From an uncultured Armatimonadota bacterium (GTDB taxonomy: Bacteria; Armatimonadota; Fimbriimonadia; Fimbriimonadales; Fimbriimonadaceae): a DNA stretch of 45,254 nt. The stretch spans positions 1-45,254 of the forward strand of contig CAIYMO010000034.1 in NCBI GenBank assembly GCA_903927345.1, written 5' to 3'. A program made the translations under genes and the position numbers. Shown one piece after another: positions 31,986 through 39,488 of this stretch. The notes under the pieces are model-generated. The model did no database searches. It worked only from the letters and a program-made list of their open reading frames with translations, and was not told where the DNA came from. Every line of letters starts with the position of its first letter. The stretch's first letter is position 1.

Positions 31986-34900
31986 TCAACCCACCAGGAA
32001 GTCCGCCGTCACAATCGGCAACGGAGAATGTCCCCAGCCCATGTCGCTCGAACCCGTCGAAGCTGCATCCGGAACCCCGAGCAAGGAAGTTATCAGTGGC
32101 TTATAGGGAAACACGCGTGAAGCAAGAAACGCCACATGGTCATCCCGTACCTGAGCTTCTCCAATGATCGTCACATAAGGCGAACACACAATCGCATGCC
32201 CATCGCGCTGATAAGTCTCGTCAAAGCAGGTCACGTTCAGTAGCCCAGTCTCATCTTCAAGATCAAAGAACACAACGCGTTTACCGCTTGGAGTCGGCGG
32301 AAAACGTAGCCGTATCGGATTCCCAACTACAATCGCCTTACGCCCATGCTCAAGCCGCCGTGCGACAGATGTAGTCACCCCGCCCCGGCTGGCCACCCTC
32401 TCCCGTTCAAAGCTCATCAAGTGCTGGTCGATATCCAAGTCCAAATACCGCCGCTCATGAATCGCTCGCTCCGCGAGATTGAAATCAACAATATCCGAAG
32501 GCAAAATCGGAATCGGTGCCCCCAAAGGCAGAGTCCCCGGAGTGTTGTATGCCCGCGCATAATCCAAAATCGCTGGCAAGCCCCATAGCAACTGCCGCCG
32601 GTTCGGATGAAGCGAATCAAAGGCACCAACAAGAATGAGCCGCTCCAGGTCATCCCGATCCGGGTTAGTTTTCATCGCAAAATCAAAAACGCTCTCAAAT
32701 GGCCTCGCCAAAGAAATGCGTAACGACAAATCACGATTCAATCCCGATATCTGCGCCAAAGCAATCCGTATCCCGCCATTAGGAACAACGATCTGCGGAT
32801 CCATTGCAGATTTCACACTCTCCACGGCAAACCCAACCTCGCTCAGATTGATGTCTACCGGAAGGATCGCCACCCCCCGATTCCTAGCCTCATTCACTAA
32901 CGTACAGGGCCCGTAATATCCTGCTGGTTGTGCATCCAGAAGAGAAGCAAAATACTCCGCCGGATAATGTTGCTGGCAGTAAATCGACCGCACCGAAATC
33001 TCTGCGAACGCTAGCGCGTGCCCCTGAGCAAACCCGTACCCTTTGAACCCTGCAATGAGCTCAAAAACCTCCAGAGCAACCTGCAACCCGTACCCATTCG
33101 CCTGAATTCGACGAAGAACTCGCTCCTTAATCTCACGACCAAAATCCTCCCGTCGCCGCTTGTGAATCTGCTCCCGAGTGTCCTCCGCCTCTCCACCCGA
33201 ATATCCCGCGAACTTCTGCAACAGTAGGTCAACCTGCTCCTGGAAAACAATGATCCCGTAGGTGATCCCCAAAATCTCCTCCAGATCAGGGTGGGCAAAC
33301 GTAAACGGCTTCCCATGCCGCCGAGCAATCATCTCGTTCAGCTTCACAGCACCGCCAACCCCCGGGCGAATACCTGCCTGAACCAGCGAAGCATCCTCTA
33401 GGTTCTTCGTCTTCAACCGAATGTGTGCCTGACGCATTGCCGGAGAGGCGGACTGGGGAATTCCGATCAACTCACCTGAGCGCATTGTGGCGTAAACGTC
33501 GGGATCATCCGAAGGAAGCTGAGCGACGTCAAAGTTACGATCCCGCACCACCACCCGATCCTGAGTCCCCTCCAACACATCCTGACCCCGAAGGCACAGA
33601 ATGTCGAACTTATCAAAGTAGTGCTTCGCGCTCCGCTTATCCCATTGAATGATCCGCAAATGCCCGCCTGCCGGATCCTCACCTGCTGACCACATCACCG
33701 GAACGGTTTCGCAAAGAGGGCGTGAGGAAATCACAATCCCTGAGGAGTGCGCGCGCATATTGCGCGGGATATCCATCATCCGCTCAGCAAGGCTCAAAAC
33801 CCATCGAAATCGTTCCCTCGGGATGTTGCTTCCGCGAAGTTCTGGTCGCTTCTCAAGAGCTGCCTCCAGTTTGTCAGGCGAGATCCCGCCATGGACGCGC
33901 TTACTCAGAAACGATATCGTCGAATCAGGCAATCCAAACACCTTGCCCACCTCACGGATAATCCCCCGAGTGCAGTAAGCCCCGACGGCCGCAACAGTCG
34001 CAACGCAATCCTCACCATATTTTTGCGTCAAGTAGGACCGAACCTCATTCCGACGTTTGGCAGGGAAGTCGATGTCAATATCTGGGCGCTTTGTGCCATC
34101 GGCAGGAAGAAAACGATCAAAGTGCAGTCGGTGCTTATAAGCATCAACTCGGCTCAAATCTAGACAATACGCAACGACAGAATCAACAACCGATCCGCGT
34201 CCACTAAACTGGTAACCTCTTCGTGAAGCCCAGCGGCAAGCATCCCAAATAGTCAAAAAGTGATCCGCATAATTTAAGCGACAAATCCTTTCAAGCTCTT
34301 TGTCAATTCTCTTGCGAATTCCAACGGTCATCAAGGGATACTTCTGATGTGCACCCGCATAAGTGACTTCTCGAATTGCGTTTTCGGGGTCGTCGAATAG
34401 TTTGGGCAATGTTGTGCGACTCGGCATCACATCCTTGTCGCACTTCTCCAGCAACTCAAGAGTATTCGCCACCAGTTCAGGACTCTCCGAATAGAGTTCG
34501 CCGATCTCGAGCGGCGTCCGAAGAAACCGTTCTGCATTGATCGCCCGAGTGGGGAAGCCATCAGGATGAAATCGTGGTTTTCGACCGCTAACCTCGTGAA
34601 TGAGACTCAAATGGTGAGCGCAACCAATCACCTCCTGGACCGGGAAGTGGTGCGGACGTGCATGGGTGACAAGTCCACCGGCAACCATCGGCAGTTCCAA
34701 ATCTTTGGCAAGCTGCCGCAACCCGCGTAGATGCGCGATGTCCCAAGGTTGAAAAGCGATATCTGTCTCAACATAAAGCCGATCCCGCCCAAAATGCTCT
34801 CGAAACATGCGGAGTAAATGGCTAGCCTCCTCATTCCTTCCCTTGAGAATGAGCGGTAGTAGTGGTCCATGCGATCCACCCGTAAGACAAACTAGGTCTT

Positions 34901-35552
34901 GGCTAAACTTCCAAAGTGAATCCATGCGCAGGATTGGCAAAAGGCGCTCTTCCTCAAGGTGACAACGAGTAATCAACGAAGACAAATTGATGTATCCCGT
35001 TTTGGTTTGAGCAATCAAGACAACCTCACCACCTGTCTCAAGCTCAAATGTCGCCCCGATCAAGGCATGTAGCCCCGCATCCTTACAACCTCGGGCAAGC
35101 TCAACTGCGCCTACTAACGAATAGCGGTCGGCAATACACACCCCCGGCAAGCCGTTCATTACCGCAAACTGAACGACCTCCTCAGGCAACATCACTCCTC
35201 GCCCAAAGTCATAGCCACTCGTGACATGAAGTGGAACATAAGGCGCATCCGAAACCCCCGCACGAAGCGGAGAGTAAAGCCGAGGAGGCTCAGAAACAAA
35301 CGGATGCTTCATCTTGCCATCGCGCAGCTTTCTGGTGCGCAAAGACCAGTCCTCCGAATAATCCACTGGCGCATGAACTTGCTCACCCATAAACGGCAAG
35401 TGATGATAGCCCAAATCAAGTGCTTCCTCTCTCCGAGAGCCACGTTCTACAAAACGAACCCACTCGTGGGCAGATTCACCGTCCCACCACTCACCCGCCT
35501 CACGCCAACGGGCCGAGAGTTCAGTACCATCCGGTAGTCGCCCGAAGCACAC
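31986..35552 (-). CDS. dnaE2: Error-prone DNA polymerase III alpha subunit DnaE2
   Basis: 1188 residues. The C-family polymerase core is clear: catalytic P490-DIDID (D491, D493) in RPDIDIDFPAKRRNEV, the later Asp in YFDKFDILCL, the segment NMRAHSSGIVISS...IIQWDKRSAK, the helix-hairpin-helix region (FKGYGFAQGHALAFA) and a C-terminal OB-type domain. The N-terminal PHP domain (from about 108) is degenerate: HxHS is HVTS and the TDHD motif is ADRY, so metal binding is probably lost. About 95 residues precede it and resemble a module (ARWREAGEWWDGE..WVRFV) usually linked to ImuB. DnaE2 with ImuB performs damage-induced mutagenic synthesis. The start overlaps imuB by 32 nt. Confidence 0.94.
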   Translation of the reverse strand: MCFGRLPDGTELSARWREAGEWWDGESAHEWVRFVERGSRREEALDLGYHHLPFMGEQVHAPVDYSEDWSLRTRKLRDGKMKHPFVSEPPRLYSPLRAGVSDAPYVPLHVTSGYDFGRGVMLPEEVVQFAVMNGLPGVCIADRYSLVGAVELARGCKDAGLHALIGATFELETGGEVVLIAQTKTGYINLSSLITRCHLEEERLLPILRMDSLWKFSQDLVCLTGGSHGPLLPLILKGRNEEASHLLRMFREHFGRDRLYVETDIAFQPWDIAHLRGLRQLAKDLELPMVAGGLVTHARPHHFPVQEVIGCAHHLSLIHEVSGRKPRFHPDGFPTRAINAERFLRTPLEIGELYSESPELVANTLELLEKCDKDVMPSRTTLPKLFDDPENAIREVTYAGAHQKYPLMTVGIRKRIDKELERICRLNYADHFLTIWDACRWASRRGYQFSGRGSVVDSVVAYCLDLSRVDAYKHRLHFDRFLPADGTKRPDIDIDFPAKRRNEVRSYLTQKYGEDCVATVAAVGAYCTRGIIREVGKVFGLPDSTISFLSKRVHGGISPDKLEAALEKRPELRGSNIPRERFRWVLSLAERMMDIPRNMRAHSSGIVISSRPLCETVPVMWSAGEDPAGGHLRIIQWDKRSAKHYFDKFDILCLRGQDVLEGTQDRVVVRDRNFDVAQLPSDDPDVYATMRSGELIGIPQSASPAMRQAHIRLKTKNLEDASLVQAGIRPGVGGAVKLNEMIARRHGKPFTFAHPDLEEILGITYGIIVFQEQVDLLLQKFAGYSGGEAEDTREQIHKRRREDFGREIKERVLRRIQANGYGLQVALEVFELIAGFKGYGFAQGHALAFAEISVRSIYCQQHYPAEYFASLLDAQPAGYYGPCTLVNEARNRGVAILPVDINLSEVGFAVESVKSAMDPQIVVPNGGIRIALAQISGLNRDLSLRISLARPFESVFDFAMKTNPDRDDLERLILVGAFDSLHPNRRQLLWGLPAILDYARAYNTPGTLPLGAPIPILPSDIVDFNLAERAIHERRYLDLDIDQHLMSFERERVASRGGVTTSVARRLEHGRKAIVVGNPIRLRFPPTPSGKRVVFFDLEDETGLLNVTCFDETYQRDGHAIVCSPYVTIIGEAQVRDDHVAFLASRVFPYKPLITSLLGVPDAASTGSSDMGWGHSPLPIVTADFLVG

Positions 35553-36651
35553 GCAGCACCTCCTTGCGTCGAGGAATCTTCACTTCGGAAGCCGCCATAA
35601 TCGCGGTTGACCCATATTTCCGCGCCAACCGATCAACCGCCTCAAAGGGCAAAGAACTCTCCCTTTCAACTAACCCGCTGAGGCTAATCTGCCGACGAGA
35701 CGAATGCCCCACCTCATGTGCCACCGCACGAAGTCGAGCCACACCGCTAGTCACCGCCAGGTCGGTCCAAAGCTGAAGTAGACTCGTGCGAATACGAAGC
35801 GCCGAATGCATCGCCTTTCCAAACTGCCTTCGCAGAGACGTTTCGCCCTCTTCTGTTTCAACAAACAGCTCAAGCGATTTCGCCTCCAAATCAGCTTCGT
35901 TCAACGCCAACGCCAGTTCAGTAGCCAGGCGTCCCAGACCTGCAACAATGACCTCTGAATCCGAGCAGGTCCCATCAAAAGGAATCCTGCGACTCATCGA
36001 GCACGGTGGATAGTTCGCCACCACCGGCTCATGAAGCATCCCCATCGCCGCCTGACGAATCGTAAGTCCATACAGCCCAAACTGCGATTTCAAGGTGGCT
36101 AGCGACAACTGCTGAATCTCACCAATGTTTCGATAACCCAAAAAAGCCAGCCGCTCACGAACCGGCATCTCTATGGGAGCCAGATAAACCAGAGATTCCT
36201 TTGCCAATGCTTCGAAAGGTTTTGGGAAGTTCAACAAGCCCTTTGTCGGAGCAAGCGCCTCCGCCAGCCACCGACACGGCGAAACTGCTCCTCGGTAATC
36301 AAAAGGCAAGGCATCACAAACCTCAAGTGCCGTTCGGTAGGGATCACCATGCCCCGCTAAGTCAACAAACGCTCGATGAGGCGCAACTACTTCGACCGAA
36401 TCTGAAACAGTACACAGGCGATTCAGCCAGCAGTGCGATGCATCAGTATAACGCTCCTCTGCGAACTCATAAACCGTGAGCTCATGCAGGATCGCCTTAG
36501 CCTGCCCAATCGCCATTCCCACACGAATTCCCGCTCTTTGGCCCACTGGGCAAGCATCAATAATCAACTTGTTGCGAACAACTACCGCTGGTGAGGCTGG
36601 CTCGTGGCAGGCTAGGTACAGGCCAAAAACCTCGACGAAAAGAGTAGACAT
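35521..36651 (-). CDS. imuB: ImuB, catalytically inactive Y-family polymerase-like mutasome subunit
   Basis: 376 residues. It has the Y-family layout: an N-terminal palm piece (MSTLFVEVFGLYLACHEP...GIRVGMAIGQAKAI), the middle motif PHRAFVDLAGHGDPYRTA, a thumb with helix-hairpin-helix (LAFLGYRNIGEIQQLSLATLKSQFG) and a little-finger domain. The catalytic acids of active Y polymerases (DxD at the start and SxDE in the middle) are not kept, as in ImuB. ImuB bridges the beta clamp and DnaE2. The C-terminus is short and ends within the dnaE2 start. No imuA/recA-like partner is present upstream; the divergent neighbour is a GH2 gene. Confidence 0.9.
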   Translation of the reverse strand: MSTLFVEVFGLYLACHEPASPAVVVRNKLIIDACPVGQRAGIRVGMAIGQAKAILHELTVYEFAEERYTDASHCWLNRLCTVSDSVEVVAPHRAFVDLAGHGDPYRTALEVCDALPFDYRGAVSPCRWLAEALAPTKGLLNFPKPFEALAKESLVYLAPIEMPVRERLAFLGYRNIGEIQQLSLATLKSQFGLYGLTIRQAAMGMLHEPVVANYPPCSMSRRIPFDGTCSDSEVIVAGLGRLATELALALNEADLEAKSLELFVETEEGETSLRRQFGKAMHSALRIRTSLLQLWTDLAVTSGVARLRAVAHEVGHSSRRQISLSGLVERESSLPFEAVDRLARKYGSTAIMAASEVKIPRRKEVLRVLRATTGWY

Positions 36652-36665
36652 AGGTCTACATTATC
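36644..36665 (-). promoter_or_regulatory. imuB promoter -10 with overlapping palindromic operator candidate
   Basis: On the minus strand GATAAT (36660-36665) ends eight bases before the imuB ATG. A perfect palindrome, GTAGAC-N4-GTCTAC (36644-36659), directly abuts it and covers the start codon. This is where a repressor such as LexA would block transcription. That the site is an SOS box is inference. Confidence 0.55.
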
Positions 36666-36698
36666 TGCGAAATGCATCGTGAAATCAAGGGCAATTTT

Positions 36699-39488
36699 GT
36701 GTATGCTTGCAAAGTGCTGACCGCAATTGCCGCCGCCACTCTATACCAAGCGCCGAACCAAGTCCCGAACCAGTTTGAGAGTCGTCAGATCATTTCCTTA
36801 GACGACGACTGGAAATTCGCTCTTGGCCACGCTGCTGATGCCACAAAAGACTTTAACTACGGTCTCGATTCCTTTGGTGCATTTGCAAAAGCCGGAATAG
36901 AAGACGGCGCAATGGGCCGCGGATTCGGAGATACCGCATGGCGAACCGTCCAAGTCCCTCACGACTGGTGCGTCGAACTCCCGTTCGATCAAAAAGGCGA
37001 CCTCATGCACGGCTTCAAAGCCATCGGCCGCCGATTCCCCGAAAACTCCATCGGCTGGTACCGCAAAAGCTTCGACCTCCCCAAAGAGGACGCCGGTAAA
37101 CGTTTCGTCCTCAAGTTCGACGGTATCTTCCGCGACGCCCAAGTCTGGGTTAACGGACAGTACATCACTCGCAACACCAGCGGCTACATGGGCTTCACTG
37201 TCGACGTCACCAAAGTTCTTGAAACCGGAGCCCGAAACGTTATCGCCGTCCGCGTCGACGCAAGCGTCTACGAAGGTTGGTTCTACGAAGGCGCCGGAAT
37301 CTACCGCCACGTCTGGCTCAACAAAACCAACCACGACTTCCTTGTTGAGGACGAACAGTTCATCAAGCCCGAAGTGAATGGCAACGTCACCGCCGAAATC
37401 ACGACTCAAACCACAAAGGCACGAACCGCCAAGCTTCAAATCACCGACAGCGAAGGCAAAGTCGTCGCCACATCCCCCGCGACCAAGCTCAAAGGTGATA
37501 AAGGCACTCTCAAAGTAAAGGTCACCAAACCCAAGCTCTGGTCTCCCGACGCGCCTAACCTCTACCGAGCCCACGTCCTCCTCCTCGATGGCGAAACCGT
37601 TCTCGACAAGTACGAGACCAACATCGGGTTCAAAAGCGTCGTCTTCGACCCTGATAAAGGTCTATTCATCAACGGCAAGTACACCGAGATTAAAGGCGTC
37701 TGCAACCACCAAGACCACGCCGGAGTCGGTGCTGCTGTCCCCGATCGCCTCAACGAATGGCGCATCGAACGGCTAAAGGAAATGGGCTGCAACGCCCTGC
37801 GAACCAGCCACAACCCGCCCACTCCCGAACTCCTCGACGCCTGCGACAAACTCGGAATCCTCGTCCAAGACGAGAACCGCCTCTTCAGCGCCGGTCCCGA
37901 AGGGTTCAGCCAAATGGAGCGACTCGTCAAGCGCGACCGCAACCACGCCAGCGTCTTCATGTGGTCACTCGGCAACGAAGAGTGGGGCGTTCAAACCTCA
38001 AAAGCAGGAGAGCAAATCTCCCAAGCTCTTTACGACCTCACTCGAAAGCTCGACCCAACCCGAACCATCACCCAAGCCGTCAACTCAGGCGACGTCTGGG
38101 AAGGCTCAAACAAAGTCGTCGACAATCGTGGCTTCAACTACAACCTTTTCGGCGCCGACAGCTATCACAAGAACCACCCCAAACAGCCTATTCACGGCAG
38201 CGAAGTCGCCAGCATGCTCTCCACCCGTGGCGAGTATAAGTCCAACGACGGCAAAAACGTCATGGACTCCTACGACTACAAAAAGGTCGATTGGGGCGAG
38301 GGTTCCGAAGAGTGGTGGGCTTGGAAACTCCAGCGCCCCTGGTTCTCCGGTGGCTTCGTCTGGACCGGCTTCGACTATCGTGGCGAGCCAACCCCGCACA
38401 GCTGGCCAACCATCAGCAGCCACTTCGGCATCATGGACACCTGCGGCTTCGCCAAAGACGTCTTCTACTACTACCAATCCTGGTGGTCCAGCAAACCCGT
38501 CCTCCACATCCTCCCCCACTGGAACTGGGCAGGCAAGGAAGGCAAGAAGGTCGACGTCTGGGTCTTCAGCAACTTCGAAACCGTTGAGCTAAAGCTTAAC
38601 GGCAAGTCGCTCGGTAGCAAAAAAATGCCTGTCGGCGGACACCTGAACTGGGAAGTCGAATACCAACCTGGTGAGCTCACCGCGGTTGGAACCAAGGGCG
38701 ATCTCAAAAATGTCGTCACGGTCAAAACGACAGGAGCAACCGGTCAGCTCAGGCTTGAGCCTGATCGAACCAGCATTACCGCCGATTCCAAAGACCTCTC
38801 GGTCATCACCGTCAAAGGTCTCGACACTGAAGGATTCCTTAATCCTCTCGCGAACGAAAACGTCACGTTCGAAATCGACGGCCCTGGGCGCATCATCGGT
38901 GTCGGTAACGGCGACCCCAACTGCCACGAACCAGATCAATACATCACTAAGCCCAGCTACCAAGACATCTCGGATGGCTGGTCATGGCAAATGATCGCCA
39001 GTCAAACCGCCAAGCCTGACTACACTAAGTGGAAGCCCACCCAGGTGAAAGAGAACCAAAACATGCCGCCCAACAGCTACGCTGCTTTCCGACGAGTAGT
39101 CACGGTTGAAAATCCTGATACTTGGTCGACTCTCAACCTCGGCCCCACCGACGACAACGGCTGGGTCTATCTTAACGGCGAGCTAGTCAGCACGACCGAC
39201 GAGTGGAACAAACCCCACATTGCATATATCAAGGGCAAGCTCGAGTACGGCGATAATGAGATCCTGGTGATTGTGAAAAACAACAGCGGAGCCGGTGGTT
39301 TCAGCCGAGGCGGAAGCATCGGCGGCCTCGCCAAAGCTCCCACCTGGACCCGGTCGCTCTACAACGGCCTCGCCCAAGTCATCGTCCAAAGCACAGGAAA
39401 GCGCGGCCGAATCGAACTACGCGCACGCTCCGGATTCCAAGTGACAACAATAAACATTGACACCACGACCCCCAAAGGACGAAACTAA
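36699..39488 (+). CDS. Secreted glycoside hydrolase family 2 enzyme (beta-galactosidase-like)
   Basis: About 929 residues from GTG 36699, preferred because AAGGG lies seven bases upstream and the product begins with a compact signal peptide (YACKVLTAIAAATLYQA); ATG 36672 adds nine residues. The layout is the GH2 jelly-roll sugar-binding domain (WYRKSFDLPKEDAGKRFVLKFDGIFRDAQVWVNG), an Ig-like domain, and the TIM barrel with acid/base E427 in WSLGNEEW and nucleophile E502 in HGSEVASM. C-terminal beta domains follow. About 110 residues resembling a second jelly roll (residues ~780-890) are inserted between VGNGDPNCHEPD and YNGLAQVIVQS, which are usually close together. It probably cleaves beta-linked galactosides outside the cell; other GH2 specificities are possible. 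Confidence 0.92.
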   Translation: MYACKVLTAIAAATLYQAPNQVPNQFESRQIISLDDDWKFALGHAADATKDFNYGLDSFGAFAKAGIEDGAMGRGFGDTAWRTVQVPHDWCVELPFDQKGDLMHGFKAIGRRFPENSIGWYRKSFDLPKEDAGKRFVLKFDGIFRDAQVWVNGQYITRNTSGYMGFTVDVTKVLETGARNVIAVRVDASVYEGWFYEGAGIYRHVWLNKTNHDFLVEDEQFIKPEVNGNVTAEITTQTTKARTAKLQITDSEGKVVATSPATKLKGDKGTLKVKVTKPKLWSPDAPNLYRAHVLLLDGETVLDKYETNIGFKSVVFDPDKGLFINGKYTEIKGVCNHQDHAGVGAAVPDRLNEWRIERLKEMGCNALRTSHNPPTPELLDACDKLGILVQDENRLFSAGPEGFSQMERLVKRDRNHASVFMWSLGNEEWGVQTSKAGEQISQALYDLTRKLDPTRTITQAVNSGDVWEGSNKVVDNRGFNYNLFGADSYHKNHPKQPIHGSEVASMLSTRGEYKSNDGKNVMDSYDYKKVDWGEGSEEWWAWKLQRPWFSGGFVWTGFDYRGEPTPHSWPTISSHFGIMDTCGFAKDVFYYYQSWWSSKPVLHILPHWNWAGKEGKKVDVWVFSNFETVELKLNGKSLGSKKMPVGGHLNWEVEYQPGELTAVGTKGDLKNVVTVKTTGATGQLRLEPDRTSITADSKDLSVITVKGLDTEGFLNPLANENVTFEIDGPGRIIGVGNGDPNCHEPDQYITKPSYQDISDGWSWQMIASQTAKPDYTKWKPTQVKENQNMPPNSYAAFRRVVTVENPDTWSTLNLGPTDDNGWVYLNGELVSTTDEWNKPHIAYIKGKLEYGDNEILVIVKNNSGAGGFSRGGSIGGLAKAPTWTRSLYNGLAQVIVQSTGKRGRIELRARSGFQVTTINIDTTTPKGRN

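Follow-up and report, generated by a model that had tools for sequence, protein, structure and literature searches.

The perfect palindrome GTAGAC-ATAG-GTCTAC, located at the imuB promoter in the 45,254-nucleotide stretch of DNA analyzed here (the window), is very probably the LexA operator, or SOS box, of the Fimbriimonas imuB-dnaE2 operon; it would repress by covering the promoter and would be shared with recA, uvrA, and recQ. The earlier note had described a perfect palindrome that touches a GATAAT element and spans the imuB start codon, and this description was confirmed in every part (Table 1). The dyad lies over the core promoter of a DNA damage gene, and TTGATT-N17-GATAAT (36688-36660, minus strand) is the sole promoter-like site of the region, where 0.2 such sites are expected. 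The divergent galA ORF as called (36672-39488, plus strand) begins within the imuB promoter, and its true start may be farther downstream.

Table 1. Coordinates of the predicted operator, the imuB promoter and cassette, and related loci elsewhere in the genome (positions without a contig name refer to the window).
Feature	Position	Strand	Remarks
Operator core GTAGAC-ATAG-GTCTAC, GTAGACATAGGTCTAC (predicted LexA box)	36644..36659		Predicted from sequence; kept at 29/29 imuB promoters
Extended box (20 bp) delimited from relatives, TAGTAgACatatGTcTACTA	36642..36661		Top match in window, 19.2 bits
imuB -10 element GATAAT	36660..36665	minus	Adjoins operator; like layout in relatives (L004, L005)
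imuB -35 element TTGATT	36683..36688	minus	17-bp spacer; TTGATT also in the two nearest relatives
imuB start codon ATG	36649..36651	minus	Within operator
imuB	35521..36651	minus	Y-family polymerase-like, without the usual catalytic acidic motifs; PF00817, PF11799
dnaE2 (error-prone DnaE)	31986..35552	minus	Overlaps imuB end; family match from residue 103
Box at HTH gene, same genome	C55:77300-77319		Loci L034/L230; relatives L213-L250, L315-L317
Split uvrA genes, same genome	C13:29702-30718 and C13:~52404-54266		Loci L036, L037; L322-L332, L352-L360

The operon has the makeup of an ImuB-DnaE2 cassette, with a Y-family protein that lacks catalytic acids standing beside a second DnaE. Inspection of the ImuB translation for a polymerase IV-type catalytic Asp or an SxDE motif revealed none, and ImuB orthologues were 73 to 74% identical in two relatives and 24 to 34% identical in the remaining ones. 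The top NCBIfam model for DnaE2 was error-prone DnaE, though its score fell below the model cutoff, and the true dnaE2 start may lie further in than called; the other of the two DnaE genes in the genome is on contig C22. Where it is present, the imuA-imuB-dnaE2 cassette is persistently LexA regulated (PMC3323433). The operon studied here resembles that cassette in its overlapping imuB and dnaE2 genes under a LexA-type box but differs in that no imuA adjoins imuB in the window, neither imuA nor imuA' being found between imuB and galA.

The string alone is not distinctive. The window contains 21 perfect 6-N4-6 palindromes versus ~11 expected, the exact 16-mer occurs as a single copy in the 3.1-Mb genome, and exact copies were found in 15 of 81 genomes of the order, about the same frequency as that of a reversed control; the bare palindrome is therefore not significant by itself. 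The significance of the box rests on its position, which is conserved among relatives. As expected under the reading given in the earlier note, the box was retained at the promoter or start of all 29 imuB loci of the order, with best 16-mer scores of 9 to 12 of 12, whereas adjacent coding windows scored 6 to 9 of 12 and the signal was present at a spacing of 4 only. The start codon falls inside the box in 16 of these relatives and outside it in 13. A 20-bp matrix was then trained on imuB promoters from other clades, with the clade under study left out. In a scan of the window with this matrix, the imuB box ranked first and the runner-up scored 9.2 bits; the best scores of 30 shuffled windows had a mean of 10.6 and a maximum of 18.3. 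Because one shuffled window reached the latter value, the imuB matrix alone is insufficient for genome-wide use.

De novo palindromic EM on the imuB promoters yielded ATAGTAgACaTAtGTcTACTAT, with a log-likelihood of 289 for the 20-bp model versus 29 to 36 for shuffled sequences. A separate palindromic run on recA promoters, whose motif set comprised 15 of 30 recA loci, yielded TAGTAGACGNNCGTCTACTA (log-likelihood of 99.6 versus 27 to 32 for shuffled sequences). Free (nonpalindromic) EM on the recA upstream regions settled on a different conserved block, so that the box was recovered there via the palindromic mode only. The imuB-trained matrix, to which recA promoters were unseen in training, gave these promoters a mean score of 11.4, versus -2.8 for shuffled sequences. 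The functional motif corresponds to a degenerate form, TAGTAGAC-N4-GTcTACTA, rather than to the exact 16-mer. The earlier note had suggested searching for the exact GTAGAC-N4-GTCTAC at other repair genes; that string gave neither a second genomic copy nor enrichment in relatives, and it was the degenerate form that recurred at repair genes. Together, the boxes at all imuB loci and the degenerate form at recA support the earlier reading of the palindrome as a candidate SOS operator, with LexA as the predicted binder.

When the 81 genomes were searched blindly for TAGTAGAC-N8-ACTA, 87 sites were returned versus 39 for the control, and the family to which the genome belongs (f1) accounted for 79 versus 25. 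In a second family of the order (f2), the blind search returned zero sites; the recA and lexA promoters of this family nonetheless retain GTAGA...TCTAC. The genes beside the sites most commonly encode an HTH protein of ~145 amino acids (22 sites), followed by imuB (14), radical-SAM/SPL-like proteins (5), DinB-fold proteins (4), mraZ (4), LigD phosphoesterases (3), and glyoxalases (3), and recA, DNA polymerase IV, dnaE2, ssb, rmuC, and ftsZ were also box adjacent. Pfam supports the names HTH, radical-SAM, DinB, LigD, and glyoxalase, and the others were assigned from sequence alone. In the genome under study, the box at recA is CTAGACGGGCGTCTAT, and boxes also occur at recQ, a glyoxalase gene, the HTH gene, and both uvrA halves; those of recA and uvrA are degenerate. 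The motif is thus found at other core SOS genes (recA, uvrA, and translesion [TLS] polymerases). The LexA core regulon comprises lexA, recA, uvrA, TLS polymerases, and imuA-imuB-dnaE2, with splB in some groups, and the box-bearing genes agree with it (PMC3323433).

The uvrA gene is split in several Fimbriimonas genomes into an N-terminal gene (~680 amino acids) and a C-terminal gene (~340 amino acids), with a box or half-site at the start of both halves; other relatives have a full-length uvrA. One uvrA match initially taken for a full-length gene proved to be the C-terminal half of the split uvrA. In some relatives, boxes stand before ftsZ (L273), mraZ (L287/L291/L293), and a stand-alone LigD phosphoesterase gene (L288/L290), which suggests that cell division and end repair may be under damage control in these species.

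The genome has one LexA gene. Its product is 96% identical to the LexA of a Fimbriimonas sp., and the next closest sequences are from Fimbriimonadaceae/Fimbriimonadales and other Armatimonadetes; on this basis the genome was assigned to Fimbriimonas (Armatimonadota). Alignment shows the Ala-Ala-Gly (A-G) site, the GDSM serine, and the ATIKRI lysine, and by this measure the self-cleavage motif is intact. In an alignment with a proteobacterial structure, the recognition helix is SLRGVTVHLDAL (SLRGVTVHL) versus proteobacterial SPNAAEEHLKAL. The lexA promoter has a layout of its own. The N4 palindrome, when sought in lexA promoters with the imuB-trained matrix, gave scores barely above those of shuffles, and yet 28 of the 29 lexA promoters from Fimbriimonadales carry an exact GTAGAC, typically directly after the -35 element. 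Its partner in 20 of the 29 is [GT]TCTAC, 18 or 19 bp away, and the two lie on either side of the -10 element. Of the expectation that the palindrome would recur at lexA and recA, the recA part therefore held in degenerate form, and at lexA the N4 arrangement was replaced by the spaced half-sites. The lexA promoters of some species (among L047-L076) contain a third half-site downstream.

These features are consistent with a mechanism in which a LexA dimer would bind, through its recognition helix, two (TA)GTAGAC half-sites 10 bp apart. Bound LexA would span the imuB promoter from the -10 element across the transcription start to the start codon and would thereby block RNA polymerase from starting. 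The imuB transcript is probably leaderless, judging from the distance to the -10 element and from several relatives in which TATAATAGTAGAC is followed by ATG within a few bases. Upon DNA damage, RecA filaments would trigger LexA self-cleavage, and the error-prone ImuB-DnaE2 polymerase pair would be made; the same box would control recA, uvrA, recQ, and further genes. LexA would control its own gene through the same half-sites placed around the -10 element of lexA. These half-sites, 24 to 25 bp apart, could be read by a pair of adjacent dimers, with a good arm and a poor arm for each.

Three readings that do not involve a damage regulator were weighed against the LexA operator. The inverted repeat could work as RNA, by forming a hairpin or a terminator within the leader of imuB, and its 6-pair stem and 4-nucleotide loop followed by TCTTTTCGTC do look terminator-like on the minus strand. 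However, in most relatives only 3 to 6 of 8 arm positions of the imuB box are complementary (e.g., TAGTAGACAGATATGCACTA), and the repeat straddles the imuB start codon, which leaves no leader available to fold. Since relatives retain the sequence and lose the pairing, an RNA hairpin is highly improbable. The palindrome also lies at the 20-bp gap that separates the start codons of imuB and galA, a β-galactosidase gene, and might be a sugar regulator operator for galA with only an incidental position at imuB. The box goes with imuB and not with galA, which makes this reading equally implausible: it tracks imuB in 29 genomes with unrelated neighbors, and in one relative (G015, locus L005) the divergent gene has been swapped for another while TTGATT-N17-AATAAT and the box are retained. 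Almost no weight can be given to a chance palindrome kept only for the Met-Ser-Thr of ImuB encoded in its right arm. The abundance of perfect 6-N4-6 palindromes in the window would allow for such an accident, and in the three closest genomes this arm is coding sequence, but the same arms appear at recA, uvrA, and lexA, and the reading is refuted by the noncoding boxes of the 13 relatives whose start codon lies outside the box.

A different binder is the main rival to LexA. The box could be read by another damage regulator, instead of or in addition to LexA, the likeliest candidate being the ~145-amino-acid HTH protein, which is sigma-70 region 4-like and has a weak match to PF04545. The gene of this protein has the strongest boxes and forms the largest box-bearing group in the order, HTH genes of other Armatimonadota families have perfect 8-4-8 boxes (L315, L316), and the restriction of lexA promoters to spaced half-sites speaks against LexA as the binder. 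Conversely, nearly every relative has the half-site at lexA, the box stands at the start of lexA in Omnitrophota whose LexA shares the recognition helix, and the genes with the box form the classical LexA core (PMC3323433). Small stand-alone HTH proteins like this one are not known to sense DNA damage. An alternative binder is thus unlikely, although less so than the three readings above, and LexA remains the preferred one. The HTH protein is perhaps a second-tier SOS regulator. A two-tier Armatimonadota SOS response can be proposed tentatively, in which LexA would read GTAGAC arms either 10 bp apart (targets) or 24 to 25 bp apart (lexA, flanking the -10 element) and would also control a phylum-wide sigma region 4-like regulator; if this is true, the damage signal would be routed through a second transcription factor.

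The earlier note had stated that the palindrome does not match CTGT-N8-ACAG or GAAC-N4-GTTC, which holds for the de novo imuB and recA motifs as well. The Firmicutes/Actinobacteria GAAC-N4-GTTC box (DinR/Cheo box), which is read by a LexA dimer, is likewise a palindrome with a 4-bp gap that lies over SOS promoters (PMC3323433), but the half-site here is (TA)GTAGAC rather than (C)GAAC, the helix is SLRGVTVHL, and the half-sites at lexA are spaced. With the gamma- and betaproteobacterial CTGT-N8-ACAG system, the box shares the regulon logic and the repressor family (TIGR00498) but neither the half-site nor the spacing, and the proteobacterial helix is SPNAAEEHL. The Xanthomonadales LexA box is TTAGTAG-N5-CTACTAA. 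Its outer TAGTAG/CTACTA resembles TAGTAGAC/GTCTACTA, but TAGTAG and CTACTA are separated by 5 bp in that box and by 8 bp in the present one. The Balneolaeota LexA motif TTACACATATTTTWTACATA and the Bacteroidetes SOS motifs CTAA-N5-TTAG and GGA-N5-TCC (PMC7739468, PMC8565304) are also phylum-specific LexA motifs that cover this core set of genes, a radical-SAM protein among them, and differ from the present box in sequence and symmetry. By 2021, 17 distinct LexA motifs had been reported, in an account that leaves Armatimonadota unmentioned (PMC8565304). A literature search on LexA in Armatimonadetes, Armatimonadota, or Fimbriimonas, with subscription journals largely outside its coverage, returned nothing relevant. 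Phylum-specific LexA motifs are thus known as such, and the N4 gap is that of GAAC-N4-GTTC; what is new here is the half-site and the unusual spacing at lexA.

LexA operators vary between phyla for reasons that are debated, and pairs of code and recognition helix help to decipher this variation. The present work provides an SOS box that can be tested, along with a draft of its regulon, for Armatimonadota, a little-studied phylum, in which the box allows damage-inducible genes to be recognized, including the so-far-unnamed HTH protein and the split uvrA. The spaced lexA half-sites and the start codon within the operator raise concrete mechanistic questions. The earlier proposal that the operator is lineage specific stands at the scale of the phylum (Armatimonadota) but not strictly, since near-identical boxes occur at the lexA genes of two Omnitrophota and of one Aerophobetes contig. 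In the two Omnitrophota, whose LexAs share the helix (SLRGVT), an 11/12 box lies at the lexA start codon; the Aerophobetes lexA has a perfect 12/12 box, yet a different helix (KWTQGIEKH). These LexA loci of other phyla link the box to LexA more closely than its position does by itself. The same or similar boxes, GTAGACAAATGTCTAC, GTAGACTTCTGTCTAG, and GGTAGTCATATGACTACC, were seen at lexA of Aerophobetes (L183), Omnitrophota (L154, L157), and Nitrospirota (L164, L181). Ignavibacteria lexA promoters (L149-L155, L165, L168, L179, L187) contain repeated AGTGnnC-N4-GnnCACT boxes, apparently another distinct LexA code.
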